Origin: Acidobacteriota bacterium | Lineage (GTDB): Bacteria; Acidobacteriota; Terriglobia; Acidiferrales; UBA7541 | DNA length: 49,075 bases | Direction of reading: 5' to 3' | Assembly: GCA_003223295.1 (NCBI GenBank) | Contig: QHYM01000143.1 | Span: 1 to 49,075, forward strand | In this document: in pieces, positions 21,632 to 30,079 of the stretch | Numbering within the stretch: position 1 is the stretch's first letter | How the letters are laid out: each line of letters starts with the position of its first letter | Program-made: the position numbers and the translations under genes | The notes under the pieces: model-generated | What the model was told of the DNA's origin: nothing | The model's input: only the letters and a program-made list of their open reading frames with translations | Database searches by the model: none

Positions 21632-22108
21632 CGCCCTCCACCGATCCGGACAAGCGGCACTACCGCATCCGGGTACGCACCGGCTTCGCTCGGTACGCTC
21701 CGCGCTTCAGCCTTTCGGAAAGGTCCTGGAGATTCCTCTCCAGTTCCTCGCCGTAGTGCCGCCACGTCTCTCCGTCCAAGCCCGGCGCCGCTTCCTTCTT
21801 CAAGCGGAAGTAGGCCATGCGCAGCGTTTCCAGGTTATCGATGTGGTGCAGGAGCGCCGTGAACCGCAACTTCTTATCCTTTCCTGCTGCTTGACGTACC
21901 CGCTCCAGCGCACTGGGCGCGTCTTTCCCGCTCGGTGTCCGGGACGCGTTTTGCTGTGGCAGGTTCCCTTTGGCCAGACCGCTTCCCTCCATCCCTTCCG
22001 CCACCGGTTGCCCGGCTTTGTTCGAGGGCTTCTCAGGTACTACAGGTCGCTACACCACTTTCGTATCACTCTTGCATTCACTACAGCTCGCCGGTTTAAC
22101 CGGCGCAC
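21600..22108 (-). mobile_element. Internally deleted group II intron remnant
   Basis: Read on the minus strand, the element begins with GTGCGCC at 22108-22102, matching the conserved group II intron 5' end. It contains the start of an intron-encoded reverse transcriptase, then a domain V-like hairpin (CCGGA/TCCGG and GCGG/CCGC at 21646-21672) and a CCTACTCCGACC-type 3' end near 21602-21613. Most of domains I-III and most of the reverse transcriptase are missing, giving only about 509 bases. It lies antisense within the cobalamin operon, so it could not splice from the operon mRNA. The 10-mer CAAGGAGTTG borders both sides (21590-21599 and 22108-22117). The 3' boundary is approximate. Confidence 0.7.
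21660..22004 (-). pseudogene. ltrA: Group II intron reverse transcriptase, N-terminal fragment
   Basis: The 114 readable residues match the N terminus of bacterial group II intron reverse transcriptases: SALERVRQAAGKDKKLRFTA, LLHHIDNLETLRMAYFRLKK, EAAPGLDGETWRHYGEELER, then LSERLKRGAYRAKPVR. The protein stops just where the first catalytic reverse-transcriptase block would begin; normal proteins are about 400-500 residues and carry YADD, which is absent. It is therefore non-functional. The deletion joins this fragment to the domain V-like hairpin of the same intron. Confidence 0.85.
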
Positions 22109-23148: not shown

Positions 23149-24633
23149 ATGGCGAAATCCGCTCCAGAGGCCGCTTCCCTCTCGCCGGAAATCCTGGCGA
23201 AATATGAGCCCGTCATCGGCCTCGAGGTCCACGTCCAGCTCCTCACGAAAACAAAAATCTTCTGTGGCTGCTCCACGCGCTTCGGCGATCCTCCGAACAC
23301 CAACGTCTGCCCCGTGTGCCTCGGGCTCCCCGGCACTCTTCCGGTCCTCAACAAGCGCGCTGTCGAAATGGCCATGCGCGCCTCGCTCGCCCTCAATTGC
23401 ACCGTCCACGAGCATTCACGTTTCGCCCGCAAAAACTATTTCTACCCCGATCTCCCCAAGGGCTATCAAATCTCTCAGTACGAATTGCCTCTCGCCACCG
23501 GCGGCTGGCTCGACATCGAAGTCGCCGGCGCCGCCAAACGCATCGGCATCACGCGTCTCCATCTCGAAGAGGACGCCGCGAAAAACCTTCACGAAGGCTT
23601 CTCGCAATCCGCCACCAAGGCCTATATCGACTACAACCGCTGCGGCACGCCGCTCGCCGAAATAGTTTCCCAGCCGGACATCCGCTCCTCCGAGGAGGCC
23701 CACGCCTACCTCACCGCGCTTCGCCAAATCATGCTTTACACCGGGGTTAGCGACTGCAACATGGAGGAAGGCTCGCTCCGTTGCGACGCCAATGTCAGTG
23801 TCCGTCCGCGCGGCTCCAACGAATTTGGCACCAAGGTCGAAGTCAAGAACCTCAACTCCTTCCGCTTTCTCCAAAAAGCGCTCGAATACGAAATCGAGCG
23901 CCACATCAGCGTTCTCGAATACGGCGGCCGCCTCTCGCAAGAGACGCGCCTCTGGAATCAAGCCGAAGGCCACACCGTTTCCATGCGTTCGAAAGAGAAG
24001 GCCCACGATTACCGCTATTTCCCCGAGCCGGACTTGCTCCCTGTCCACGTCGGCGCCGCCTGGCGCGAAGAAGTCCGCCGCTCGCTTCCCGAACTCCCCG
24101 ATGCCAAGCATACGCGCTTCGTCGCGTGCTACGGCATCACGCCCTACGACGCCGAAGTCCTCACCGGCACGCAAGCCCTCGCCAATTATTTCGAATCTGT
24201 TGTGAAATCCGGCGCTCCCGGCAAAGCCGCCGCCAACTGGATGCAGACCGAGCTTCTCCGCCGCCTCAACGATTCCGGCAAGGAGATCGAAGCAAGCCCC
24301 GTCAGCGCGCAATCGCTCGCTGAGCTGGTCAGCCTTGTCGAATCCAGTAAAATTACCGGCAACGTCGGCAAAAAGGTCTTCGCCACCATGTTCGAATCCG
24401 GCCGCACGGCCGCCGACATCGTCGCCGCCGAAGGCCTCGGTGCCCAAGTCAGCGAATCCGCCATCGAAACAGCTGCGCGCGAAGTCATCGCCAAGAATCC
24501 CGACAACGTCGCCAAGTACAAGTCCGGCAACGAAGGCGTCTTCAAATTCTTCGTTGGTCAGGTCATGCGCGCCACTCGCGGCCAAGCCAATCCCCAAGCT
24601 GTCAACGACGACCTCCGCAAGCGTCTCTTCTGA
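23149..24633 (+). CDS. gatB: Aspartyl/glutamyl-tRNA amidotransferase subunit B
   Basis: This 494-residue GatB has the kinase-like domain that phosphorylates tRNA-bound Glu or Asp before amidation. Diagnostic stretches are YEPVIGLEVHVQLLT, KIFCGCSTRFGDPPNTNVCP with Zn-binding Cys, VCLGLPGTLPVLN, RKNYFYPDLPKGYQISQYE, DYNRCGTPLAEIVS, and the C-terminal YqeY-like domain ending NPQAVNDDLRKRLF. It works with GatA and GatC, neither of which is in this window. The ATG at 23149 gives the expected length. A 9-bp hairpin follows the gene and may terminate transcription. Presence of gatB implies the indirect pathway to Gln-tRNA and/or Asn-tRNA. Confidence 0.97.
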   Translation: MAKSAPEAASLSPEILAKYEPVIGLEVHVQLLTKTKIFCGCSTRFGDPPNTNVCPVCLGLPGTLPVLNKRAVEMAMRASLALNCTVHEHSRFARKNYFYPDLPKGYQISQYELPLATGGWLDIEVAGAAKRIGITRLHLEEDAAKNLHEGFSQSATKAYIDYNRCGTPLAEIVSQPDIRSSEEAHAYLTALRQIMLYTGVSDCNMEEGSLRCDANVSVRPRGSNEFGTKVEVKNLNSFRFLQKALEYEIERHISVLEYGGRLSQETRLWNQAEGHTVSMRSKEKAHDYRYFPEPDLLPVHVGAAWREEVRRSLPELPDAKHTRFVACYGITPYDAEVLTGTQALANYFESVVKSGAPGKAAANWMQTELLRRLNDSGKEIEASPVSAQSLAELVSLVESSKITGNVGKKVFATMFESGRTAADIVAAEGLGAQVSESAIETAAREVIAKNPDNVAKYKSGNEGVFKFFVGQVMRATRGQANPQAVNDDLRKRLF

Positions 24634-24652
24634 CTCCTTGCTCTGCCCGTAG

Positions 24653-24673
24653 GGGCGCAGCATTGCTGCGCCC
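24653..24673. repeat. Perfect hairpin GGGCGCAGC/GCTGCGCCC (dispersed-repeat-like)
   Basis: A perfect 9-bp stem with a 3-base loop follows gatB. The context GTAGGGGCGCAGC..GCTGCGCCC resembles short palindromic repeats scattered between genes in many bacteria. There is no T-run, so it is a weak terminator at best. Confidence 0.55.
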
Positions 24674-24685
24674 AGGCCCATGCCC

Positions 24686-24694
24686 TGCTAGAAT
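24686..24694 (+). promoter_or_regulatory. Extended -10 promoter of the peroxiredoxin gene
   Basis: TGCTAGAAT (24686-24694) fits an extended -10 element. It lies upstream of an AAGGAA ribosome site (24702-24707) and the ATG at 24714. The predicted leader is about 13 bases. Confidence 0.45.
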
Positions 24695-24713
24695 GTCCAC
24701 CAAGGAAATCCTC

Positions 24714-25175
24714 ATGCTCAAGCCCGGCGACAAAGCCCCTGCGTTCCGCCTCAAATCCGACGAGGACAAAATCATCGCGCTAAAAGATTTCAAGGGCCGC
24801 CGCGTCCTCCTTTTCTTCTTCCCTAAAGCCAATACCACCGGTTGAATCATCGAGGCGTCCGAGTTTCGCGACGCAAAAAAGAAGTTCGATCAGCTCAAAG
24901 TCGCCATCCTTGGCATGAGTGCCGATTCCGTCAAGGCCCAGGCGTCCTTCAAAGCGAAATTCAAATTCAATTTTCTCTTGCTCAGCGATCCCGGCCACAA
25001 AACCATCGCCGCCTACGGCGCCTGGCAGCAAAAGCAGTTCATGGGACGCAAATTCATGGGCATCGTCCGCAGCTCTTTCCTCATCGGCAAAACTGGCAAA
25101 ATCGAGGCCGCCTGGCCCGCCGTCAAAGCCAAAGGCCACGCCGCCGAAGTTCTCAAGCACCTCGCCAAGGCGTAG
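24714..25175 (+). CDS. bcp: Bcp-type peroxiredoxin with in-frame TGA at the peroxidatic Cys (candidate selenoprotein)
   Basis: Reading through one TGA (24843-24845) gives a full-length 153-residue Bcp/PrxQ peroxiredoxin, which reduces hydroperoxides in the cytoplasm. The N part (KPGDKAPAFRL..LKDFKGRRVLLFFFPKANTTG) and the C part (IIEASEFRDAKKKFDQLKV.. to ..VLKHLAKA) match the family, and the frame is intact for 110 codons after the TGA. The TGA is codon 44, where Bcp proteins have the peroxidatic Cys (consensus NTPGCTxEAC). The resolving Cys five residues later is Ser, and no other Cys exists, as in a 1-Cys enzyme. A SECIS-like hairpin follows. The alternative is a nonsense mutation. Start: AAGGAA at 24702 precedes the ATG at 24714. 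Confidence 0.7.
24855..24874 (+). promoter_or_regulatory. Candidate bacterial SECIS hairpin
   Basis: GCGTCCG (24855-24861) pairs with CG-C-GACGC (24867-24874), seven base pairs with one bulged C, closing the loop AGTTT. The loop has G at its second position (24863), 17 bases after the TGA. This fits the published bacterial SECIS spacing rule, a G in the first two loop bases 16-37 bases after the UGA. The bulged base is C rather than the U seen in E. coli fdhF and is on the 3' side. Confidence 0.5.
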
Positions 25176-25306
25176 CGTCACGAAGGCCCTAGGCACCGCG
25201 GCTCTCAAACGCAACCCCCCGTCTCTTCGGACAGGGTGTTCTTTTGGAATCCCTGCCCCTTTGGTCCGTTCCAAGCTCCCTCTTAAAGCCGCAAAATTGT
25301 TTCAGG

Positions 25307-25327
25307 GCTCGGCGTGTCCCCGAGCCG
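25307..25327 (+). promoter_or_regulatory. Leader hairpin before the SH3/beta-barrel gene
   Basis: GGCTCGG (25307-25313) pairs with CCGAGCC (25321-25327), directly before the purine-rich ribosome site GAGGAGGGGG and the ATG at 25339. It may affect mRNA stability or translation. Confidence 0.35.
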
Positions 25328-25338
25328 AGGAGGGGGCG

Positions 25339-26787
25339 ATGCATCGCTCACGTTTGCTAATCCTGCTGGCAGCCTGTTTTCTCATGACCTCAGTTGCTTG
25401 GGCGGACGACCTGGGCTACGTCGAATGCACCAGCCATCCCGACACCACACCCGTCTTCAGCAAGGCCCGGCAGACTCCGGACTCCGTCGGTGCCATTCCT
25501 TGCGGGGAGCGCTTCACCGTCTTGGTCTACGGCTTTGTCTTCTCGCGGATTCAAACGAAGGACGGCAAGATCGGCTACGTCTATTCGAACCTGATCACCT
25601 CCGATCGTGGCGGAGCCGCTGCCTCTCAGGCTGCCGCTGCGCGAGTACCCGTAACAAATACTCCCGCCAAGGCCCCCACGAATTCGGCTGCGCAGATGGA
25701 CTCGCCGCCTGTAACGACTTCGCCCGCACCGGATAAGCCGGCTGCCGCTCGAGCGGGCCCACTGTTCCCAACGCCGCCCATGCCCGCCGTAACTGCCTCC
25801 GATATGGCATCTGCGCGCGCACAATCTGCTCCTACGGCAACTGCGCCGGTACAGACCGCTTACTCGCCGGCACCGACTCCCGCAGCCAGCGCTCAGCCAG
25901 CGGCACCAGCAGCTTCGCGGCCAGCCGTGCCCACGTCGGTTGAAACGCAGTCTGCGTCTAAGCCGGCCTCGGCTTCAGTGACTCAGCCAACTCCTGCTCC
26001 ATCGCTCGTGGCTCCGCCACCTTCACAGCCTTCAGTGCCAGCGCCAGTGGAAACTCAGCCTGCGGCGCAGCCGCCGGCAGCTCAGACATCGGCCCCGGCG
26101 CAACCCGGGCCTCTGTTCCCAACGCCGCCGCCCTCTTCTGGCACCACAGACGCGGCTTCAGCCCCGGCTGCAGAGCCAACTCCGGCTCCCGCTTCAGCTT
26201 CGCAGCCTGAAGCCGCTCAACCGGCGCCAGCGCCCGTTCGCGACGCCAGCGTGCGCTCGAGCTGGGAGAGGCCTGTGCCCGGCGCTCGCCAGAACTTCCT
26301 GGTTGAACTCTATTCCGGCTACTCTTTCGCGCGCTTCACCAGCGCCGGGTCCTCCACCAACCTCAACGGTGGAATGGGCTCGTTCGGCTACAACCTGAAG
26401 CCCTGGCTCCAGATCGTTGGCGACAGCAGCTACAACTTTGTCACCATCGGCGGCACTAAGAACATCTTGTACGGCAATCATTTCGGCGGCCGCGTCTTCT
26501 ATCACCGGGGAGCTCCCTGGGGCTTTACTCCCTTCGCGGAGGTTCTGGTTGGCGGGTCGCGCCTGGACACCAGCGGCGGCGGCGTCCAGACTTCCACGAA
26601 TTGCATTTCCTATAAGGCTGGAGGCGGAGTCGACATCCGCGTCACCCGTCGCTGGGAAATCCGCGTGATTAACGTGGACTATTACCGCACCACCTTCGGC
26701 GCTGGCGGCTACAACGCCACCCAGAACAATTACTGGGCTTCCGCCGGCGTCATCCTGCGCCTCTTCGGCAGCGGCGCATCGGAATAA
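25339..26787 (+). CDS. SH3-like / Pro-Ala-rich linker / outer-membrane beta-barrel protein
   Basis: This 482-residue exported protein has a signal peptide (MHRSRLLILLAACFLMTSVAWADD). It then has a bacterial SH3-like module at about residues 25-95 (VLVYGFVFSRIQTKDGKIGYVYSNLI) with two Cys. Next comes a roughly 210-residue Pro/Ala/Ser/Thr/Gln-rich linker, in which the segment GPLFPTPP occurs twice and VETQ-type phrases recur. The C-terminal 170 residues look like an eight-stranded OmpA-type barrel (NFLVELYSGYSFARF .. NYWASAGVILRLFG). The SH3 part may bind peptidoglycan and the barrel anchor in the outer membrane. The frame is open upstream to 24919, but the ATG at 25339 has the ribosome site and signal peptide. 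The function is unknown. Confidence 0.82.
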   Translation: MHRSRLLILLAACFLMTSVAWADDLGYVECTSHPDTTPVFSKARQTPDSVGAIPCGERFTVLVYGFVFSRIQTKDGKIGYVYSNLITSDRGGAAASQAAAARVPVTNTPAKAPTNSAAQMDSPPVTTSPAPDKPAAARAGPLFPTPPMPAVTASDMASARAQSAPTATAPVQTAYSPAPTPAASAQPAAPAASRPAVPTSVETQSASKPASASVTQPTPAPSLVAPPPSQPSVPAPVETQPAAQPPAAQTSAPAQPGPLFPTPPPSSGTTDAASAPAAEPTPAPASASQPEAAQPAPAPVRDASVRSSWERPVPGARQNFLVELYSGYSFARFTSAGSSTNLNGGMGSFGYNLKPWLQIVGDSSYNFVTIGGTKNILYGNHFGGRVFYHRGAPWGFTPFAEVLVGGSRLDTSGGGVQTSTNCISYKAGGGVDIRVTRRWEIRVINVDYYRTTFGAGGYNATQNNYWASAGVILRLFGSGASE

Positions 26788-29013: not shown

Positions 29014-29427
29014 TCAGACGCCCGTGGGCAAAATCTCGTAGCGCCAAGAAAGCGCGGCCGTCTTCTTGAGCATGGCCGCGACGGAGCAGTATTTGTCTTC
29101 GCTGAGCTGGATGGCATGCTTGACGGCGTCGTCATCGAGCTGGCCGCCCAGGCGATAGAGGATTTCGAGCTTGGTCCAGACTGTGGGCGGTTGCTTGGCG
29201 CGCTCGCCGGAACAAATAACTTCGAGCGACTGCAACTTTTGCCGTTTCTTTTCGAGGATGGTCACGACGTCCGTGGCCGTGCAAGCGCCGAGCGCCATGA
29301 GCACCAGTTCCATCGGGCCGGGCGCCTTGTTGGATTCACGGTCGGAGTCCAGAGTGATGTTGTGCCCGGAGGGGCTAGTGGCCACAAATTTTTCTTCGCC
29401 AATCCATTTCACGGATGCAGTCTGCAT
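29014..29427 (-). CDS. OsmC-family peroxide-reducing protein
   Basis: This 137-residue OsmC/Ohr-like protein reduces organic or lipid hydroperoxides in the cytoplasm through a Cys pair. The two reactive Cys are in LMALGACTATDVV and EDKYCSVAAML. The N-terminal SPSGHNITLDSD.. NKAPGPMELVL is family-typical. A GGGAGG ribosome site (minus strand, 29437-29432) precedes the ATG at 29427; the longer frame to 29499 is not needed. It is downstream of the TlpA-like thioredoxin gene on the same strand, a plausible thiol-redox pairing. It is closer to the YhfA-like OsmC group than to Ohr, judged only by general sequence appearance. Confidence 0.9.
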   Translation of the reverse strand: MQTASVKWIGEEKFVATSPSGHNITLDSDRESNKAPGPMELVLMALGACTATDVVTILEKKRQKLQSLEVICSGERAKQPPTVWTKLEILYRLGGQLDDDAVKHAIQLSEDKYCSVAAMLKKTAALSWRYEILPTGV

Positions 29428-29512
29428 GCAGCCTCCCTGTTGGAAGAATAACAGGTGGGGTGGCTCGCAGCGAGTCCGACTCGGGTGCGGTCGTTTCAAT
29501 ACGCGCCTGGGT

Positions 29513-30079
29513 TTAGAGAAGGTGCTTGATGAGTTTGGAGACTTCCTCGACGTGGACCTGGCCGCGAATGAATTTCACTTCCTGGCCGTCGCGATTCACC
29601 AGCACGCTGGCAGGGAGGCCGCCCTCGAAACCGATTTTGCCAGCCGCCTCGCTGCTGCCGAGCAAAACGGGGAAATTGATCTTGCTCGACGAGCCATCGA
29701 TAGAAAAAGACTCGTTCTGGACATAACTCTTGACAGATTCCTCGCCCTCGTCATCCACGGCGAGCGCCACAACGGTGAATCCCGAGGTTTCGAACTTCTG
29801 CTGCAACTTGATTAAATCCGGCATCTCGTTGCGGCAACCGGGACACCAGGTGGTCCAGAAATTGATCAGCACAACTTTGCCCCGGTAACCTTCCAGGTTC
29901 ACCCAGTTGTCATCGGTAGCGGGCAAGACCGTATGAGGGAGGGGCTGATGGAAGTCGACAATGTTGCCGACGCCGTCTTCGGATTCGTCCGCGAAGGAAG
30001 GTAAATCGGGTCGGAAGTAGCGAAACGCGAGAGCCACACACAGAATAGCAAAAAGGAAGAGAGACAAAGCTTTCTTCAT
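29513..30079 (-). CDS. TlpA/ResA-like thiol:disulfide oxidoreductase
   Basis: This 188-residue thioredoxin-fold protein has an N-terminal membrane anchor or signal (KALSLFLFAILCVALAFRYF) that places the domain in the periplasm. The active site is FWTTWCPGC (Cys79 and Cys82), typical of TlpA/ResA proteins that reduce disulfides, for example in cytochrome c maturation. The cis-Pro loop is GGLPASVLVNRDG. The order tlpA-like, osmC-like, fabH on the minus strand allows a common transcript. The divergent gene at 30303 leaves a 223-base shared upstream region, in which I saw no clear operator. Confidence 0.9.
   Translation of the reverse strand: MKKALSLFLFAILCVALAFRYFRPDLPSFADESEDGVGNIVDFHQPLPHTVLPATDDNWVNLEGYRGKVVLINFWTTWCPGCRNEMPDLIKLQQKFETSGFTVVALAVDDEGEESVKSYVQNESFSIDGSSSKINFPVLLGSSEAAGKIGFEGGLPASVLVNRDGQEVKFIRGQVHVEEVSKLIKHLL

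Follow-up and report, generated by a model that had tools for sequence, protein, structure and literature searches.

A PrxQ/Bcp peroxiredoxin gene with a probable selenocysteine codon and a conserved downstream hairpin in a genus of Acidobacteriota

Does a TGA at codon 44 of a peroxiredoxin (Prx) gene end its translation, or is it read as selenocysteine (Sec)? The question is raised by a gene lying in a 49,075-nucleotide stretch of Acidobacteriota DNA, the whole of which is called the window here. The source genome is a draft of 6.03 Mb in 481 contigs, with a completeness of 95.2% and an estimated contamination of 4.49%.

The prxQ frame and its in-frame TGA

The bcp/prxQ gene occupies positions 24714–25175 of the forward strand and encodes 153 residues, with Sec at residue 44 when TGA is translated as U. 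It starts with ATG at 24714, preceded by AAGGAA at 24702–24707, read from the sequence as a likely ribosome-binding site, and 109 further codons follow the TGA (24843–24845) before the TAG stop at 25173–25175. The original prediction had placed this TGA in the peroxidatic-Cys column of a 153-residue Bcp/PrxQ frame that stays open to the C terminus, and the translation, the orthologue alignment and the profile matches agree with this. The product scored 154.6 bits with the curated PRK09437 thiol peroxidase profile (cut-off 140), which places it in the PrxQ/Bcp family, and 109.4 bits with Pfam AhpC-TSA. The structure predicted with Cys modelled for Sec had a mean pLDDT of 96.0, and its nearest PDB entries were BCP/PrxQ proteins, with TM scores of 0.96 to the integrative model 9a4d_B and 0.93 to 5enu_B; a profile comparison with 5enu gave an E value of 6.7e-50. 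The fold is common to this product and the Cys-containing PrxQ/BCP proteins (PDB 5enu, 5iiz and 3gkn; integrative model 9a4d_B), whereas here Sec would replace the peroxidatic Cys and Cys is absent at residue 49 and elsewhere.

The active-site context reads PKANTTG-U-IIEASEFRD. P37, T41 and R119, which we take to be the usual Prx active-site residues, are invariant over 50 aligned orthologues together with Cys or Sec at position 44, the PxxxTxxC/U motif and the Arg both being present. As predicted, the whole 153-residue frame contains no Cys, and residue 49, a usual PrxQ resolving position, is Ser (TCC, 24858–24860, forward strand), where the Cys forms of the same genus have Cys. Many, though not all, PrxQ/Bcp members have their resolving Cys five positions beyond the peroxidatic Cys; since 19 of the 97 Cys forms examined also lack Cys49, the resolving Cys that is missing here does not define the family.

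Codon 44 was compared in 61 genomes, namely the source genome, 35 of the same genus and 25 from a wider range. The genus set thus comprised 36 genomes, 35 of which gave a prxQ orthologue and one (G002) a weak match only. The 50-gene alignment was built from best-match genes and omitted weak matches (G002, G038–G042 and G051), paralogues, and the genes of G043, G046, G050 and G052, the last four of which were added to the prxQ gene set later. Codon 44 is TGA in 35 of these 50 orthologues and TGC or TGT in 15; within the genus it is TGA in 30 of 35 and TGC or TGT in five, the frames being open on both sides. An in-frame UGA that matches the Cys of homologues and is kept across several genomes is the pattern by which selenoproteins are recognised. 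Judged from these alignments, codon 44 is a conserved coding position. The original prediction had called a Sec-containing Bcp notable in this lineage; on the contrary, most orthologues in the genus have the TGA form, and the family is already listed among selenoproteins.

Farther afield, 95 of 396 sampled genomes from the phylum had a prxQ match at E ≤1e-34. Among the matches listed, TGA occurred in nine (the source genome, G000, and G260, G386, G179, G131, G245, G267, G322 and G253), and in all eight besides the source genome it stands at codon 44. The remaining listed matches had no in-frame stop, and in the nine whose codon was read (L068, L069, L072, L196–L200 and L203) it encodes Cys in every case. 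The closest named records among the matches listed came from metagenomes, and two of these genomes bear the title Acidobacteria gp2 (L075, 77% identical; L077, 56%). The wide set of prxQ genes comprised 150 rows (148 differing), with 53 TGA and 97 Cys genes; 80 of the rows are the best 80 of at least 587 matches, and the sample leans to the query.

These comparisons bear on the possibility that the TGA is a recent nonsense mutation and the downstream frame a relic, which had been put forward as the main alternative to a selenoprotein. The TGA does end a standard reading, and a shorter frame beginning at ATG 24915 is present within the region, but R119 and H142, both encoded downstream of the TGA, are invariant in the 50 orthologues. 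Because the TGA is kept in 30 of the 35 genus orthologues, in proteins as little as about 61% identical, a nonsense mutation is excluded as an explanation for practical purposes; the silent sites of the hairpin described below, which are wholly frozen, likewise contradict it. We consider this explanation very improbable.

A coding-region hairpin downstream of the TGA

The putative bacterial SECIS hairpin lies inside the coding region at 24855–24874 (forward strand) and folds as GCGUC-CGA-[GUU]-UCG-c-GACGC, with eight pairs, a three-base loop (GUU, 24863–24865) and one bulged base (24869). It begins nine bases past the TGA, its loop begins 17 bases past the TGA, and its folding energy is −8.8. 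The position and spacing first proposed for it stood; the loop, given earlier as AGTTT, had counted in the closing A-U pair. According to the available text of PMC13188914, a bacterial SECIS has a loop of 3–9 nt, a stem of 4–16 bp, a G in the first two loop positions, a spacing of 16–37 nt and a minimum free energy of at most −7.5. Checked by hand against these rules, the hairpin has values within every range (3 nt, 8 bp, G first, 17 nt, −8.8).

Seen in a single sequence, the hairpin is weak support for a SECIS. Folding z-scores of the region were unexceptional (−0.95 to −1.41), 41 of 300 synonymous recodings of prxQ folded at least as stably, and under a rough rule 189 of the 1332 TGA triplets that the window contains on its two strands had a comparable hairpin. 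A search of Rfam with positions 24500–25400 gave a single match, narK, at 14.3 bits, below its cut-off of 43.2. The hairpin is lifted above chance because it is conserved in relatives. The 30 TGA genes of the genus share one hairpin sequence apart from the bulged base: codons 48–51 and 53 agree in 435 of 435 gene pairs, a same-codon fraction of 1.0 where 0.27–0.57 is expected from codon usage, and codon 52 varies solely between C and T at the bulge. Since silent sites are frozen over the hairpin in these genes, the alignment clearly points to selection on the hairpin as RNA.

Covariation was assessed over the 53 TGA genes, two of which repeat others and which together give 30 distinct hairpin rows, against 500 shuffles that ignore relatedness. 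In the distinct rows 83.8% of hairpin cells were paired, and the covariation score was 0.172 against a shuffled mean of 0.082, a value that none of the 500 shuffles reached, relatedness being ignored. Two of the five covariation measures were not outstanding: 23 of 500 shuffles were as high for pair changes on both sides, and 266 of 500 for further pair types. Compensatory changes were seen at the loop-closing pair, which is G-C instead of A-U in 10 of the 30 distinct rows, and at the pair 24857–24872 (window numbering), where two silent changes convert G-C to A-U in L070, L071 and L193. In a control of 38 hand-picked genes from the 97 Cys forms, 53.0% of cells were paired and the covariation score fell below the shuffled mean. 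Overall, 380 of 424 cells were paired in the 53 TGA genes versus 374 of 776 in the 97 Cys genes.

The hairpin as drawn is absent from eight distant TGA genes (L061, L064, L078, L112, L136, L192, L194 and L195), it is rearranged in L071, and its outermost pair is missing in L186 and L187, so that the SECIS of such distant genes either differs or was missed. We also considered whether a Cys codon at position 49 is incompatible with the SECIS, since TGC or TGT there would disrupt a pair formed with the conserved Asp53 codon. As an absolute rule this was rejected, because four TGA genes (L188–L191) keep Cys49 with a re-registered hairpin in which the bulge has moved and Glu50 is replaced by Gly.

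Selenocysteine machinery and probable UGA decoding in the source genome

A search of the source genome for selA, selB, selC and selD found all four above their cut-offs, on contigs other than that of the window. The scores were 571.2 bits for selA, 350.3 bits for selB, 349.1 bits for selD, which itself contains one in-frame TGA (AAG-U-AAK), and 64.9 bits for the tRNA-Sec (selC), whose anticodon was read by ARAGORN as TCA (UCA). The upstream neighbour of prxQ, gatB (23149–24633, forward strand; Pfam GatB_N, 422.2 bits), has an ordinary TGA stop at 24631–24633, 80 bases upstream of prxQ, and TGA ends 14 of 32 hand-picked open reading frames of the window, gatB included, which makes it an ordinary stop codon here. 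These observations weigh against a reassignment of TGA, for example to Cys or Trp, or its readthrough by a near-cognate tRNA. Nothing was found in favour of such a reading beyond the in-frame TGAs themselves, while the tRNA-Sec with its TCA anticodon is accompanied by selA, selB and selD, and a general recoding would need no conserved hairpin; its probability is negligible.

Two identical copies of the tRNA-Sec were seen on one contig of the source genome (L001, G000:C465, at 1497–1595 and 1756–1854), with a run of N between them and the upstream flank repeated. A tandem duplication was rejected on these grounds, as the arrangement is probably a scaffolding artefact. In a relative of the same genus, a 1.6 Mb contig (G010:C2) has tRNA-Sec matches at 1112064–1112158 and 1115713–1115807, scoring 60.9 and 66.2 bits, and this pair is possibly a true duplication. 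A sequencing or assembly error that turned TGC or TGT into TGA in prxQ, conceivable in a draft assembly with one likely artefact elsewhere, is vanishingly improbable in view of the same TGA and the same hairpin in 29 other genomes of the genus.

It is therefore almost certain to our judgement, from the comparative evidence, that UGA44 of prxQ is decoded as Sec by SelB and tRNA-Sec under the direction of the downstream hairpin, making the product a Sec-containing PrxQ/Bcp peroxiredoxin. In the mechanism that we propose, SelB and tRNA-Sec would insert Sec at codon 44, guided by the hairpin nine bases downstream. As described for the family, the selenolate of Sec44 would attack and reduce H2O2 or organic hydroperoxides and become a selenenic acid, and the oxidised selenium would be reduced directly by an external thiol. 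Because the protein has no Cys, it would act as a 1-Sec peroxiredoxin that needs an outside thiol, and thioredoxin or a similar thiol most likely reduces the oxidised Sec44. Sec insertion itself, the peroxidase activity and the reductant are what we infer from these data.

Other genes were noted along the way. The source genome has 19 AhpC/TSA matches, and TGA occurs in four of them (prxQ and those on C220, C463 and C306). Those on G000:C220 (L156, FTGG-U) and G000:C463 (L170, WASW-U-GC) are Prx/TlpA-like genes with the TGA at a redox position and are further selenoprotein candidates. A motif-limited, non-exhaustive scan of the window for other Sec codons listed eight places, prxQ and seven that by eye look like chance. 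On the reverse strand of the window, about 4 kb from prxQ, an OsmC-like gene adjoins a TlpA-like redoxin gene without an in-frame stop (29014–30079), and a 114-residue open reading frame at 21660–22004 (reverse strand), without a Pfam match at 1e-5, is likely a fragment; we take it to resemble the start of a group II intron reverse transcriptase.

Sec and Cys forms of PrxQ within one genus

The two forms of the genus differ in more than codon 44. All five Cys forms have Cys49 and the common motif CT[IV]EACEFRDL[KR]PK, and all 30 TGA forms have Ser49. The gatB gene adjoins prxQ in 30 of 30 genus loci examined (L025–L054), four Cys forms among them, and it is also present in the stretch that holds the Cys form of G001. 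A missing Sec trait was rejected as the cause of the Cys forms, since all five Cys-form genomes carry selA and tRNA-Sec.

The history of the change was followed on a gatB and selA tree of 39 rows, seven of which are less than half filled and two of which, long-branched, served as the root. On it the Cys state needs three changes, all three forced by well-supported branches. A genome from another genus of the family (G036) has the Sec form and stands outside this genus on this tree, so that the fewest changes are obtained, in our reading, with a Sec ancestor and three Sec-to-Cys events. A PrxQ tree built without codons 44–57 needs three changes, two of them forced, and rejects a single clade of Cys rows (p-AU 0.0086). 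The five Cys forms have Leu54 and Pro56 in common (Pro56 is found in three TGA genes too, L037, L042 and L077), which points to common descent of the segment and against three independent reversions. PrxQ trees place G036 inside the genus, in conflict with the gatB and selA tree, so that either gene transfer or a lack of resolution has to be reckoned with; identities across the active-site segment gave no sign of a recent exchange of it. Taken together, we lean slightly towards a PrxQ active site with two states: Sec goes with the SECIS and Ser49, and the Cys state has no SECIS and carries Cys49, Leu54 and Pro56. On this view the site has switched more than once, probably three times, beside gatB and with selA and tRNA-Sec kept, either through repeated Sec-to-Cys reversions or because a short segment was exchanged. 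According to the available text of PMC13188914, bacteria rarely change Sec to Cys, and the documented cases are mainly those of FdhA and SelD.

Across the wide set of 150 rows, a sample leaning to the query, Cys49 is absent from 49 of 53 TGA genes and 19 of 97 Cys genes. A link between Sec and the missing Cys49 was unsupported there, with four supported independent pairs on the tree and a median p of 0.25. A divergent paralogue of PrxQ in which TGA takes the catalytic position occurs in two genomes, G057 (L194) and G049 (L195), together with Cys forms (L063 and L066); the match of L195 spans a TAG as well.

Sec-containing Prx proteins form a known family, to which this gene adds another member of the Bcp type. 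In the parts of the sources available, they are listed as COG1225 Bcp with a TxxU motif (PMC9312934), as 43 COG1225 genes in the Sargasso Sea data (PMC1088965), as 91 proteins from 78 organisms with no subtype given (PMC5029168) and as 253 pfam00578 sequences with TxxU (PMC2398784); selenoproteins are known in Acidobacteria in general (PMC1794560; PMC12013277). So far as those descriptions go, the present gene shares with them the Bcp type, the TxxU motif (T41-T42-G43-U44), Sec at the peroxidatic position and an in-frame downstream hairpin, but it differs in its lineage, in a SECIS that is near-invariant over the genus and in a protein without Cys. Among the open-access matches listed, the text available held no report of a Sec PrxQ in subdivision-2 Acidobacteria or of a two-state Sec/Cys PrxQ active site. 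The SECIS record is unusually clear, and the difference between Sec and Cys within one genus is the less ordinary part of the finding. PrxU of Eubacterium acidaminophilum is reportedly likewise a bacterial Prx with Sec; the NCBIfam model peroxi_PrxU, which we assume to represent it, scored 37.3 bits with the present product (cut-off 270).

Standard annotation would label this prxQ and its TGA-bearing relatives as truncated or as pseudogenes. Our data point to selenium use in the peroxide defence of uncultured Acidobacteria. With a Sec or a Cys version at one locus in closely related genomes that have the Sec-making genes, the genus offers a natural experiment on why Sec is kept or dropped, and also on how an RNA signal within a gene constrains the protein that it encodes, here at residues 48–54, which include the resolving-Cys site.
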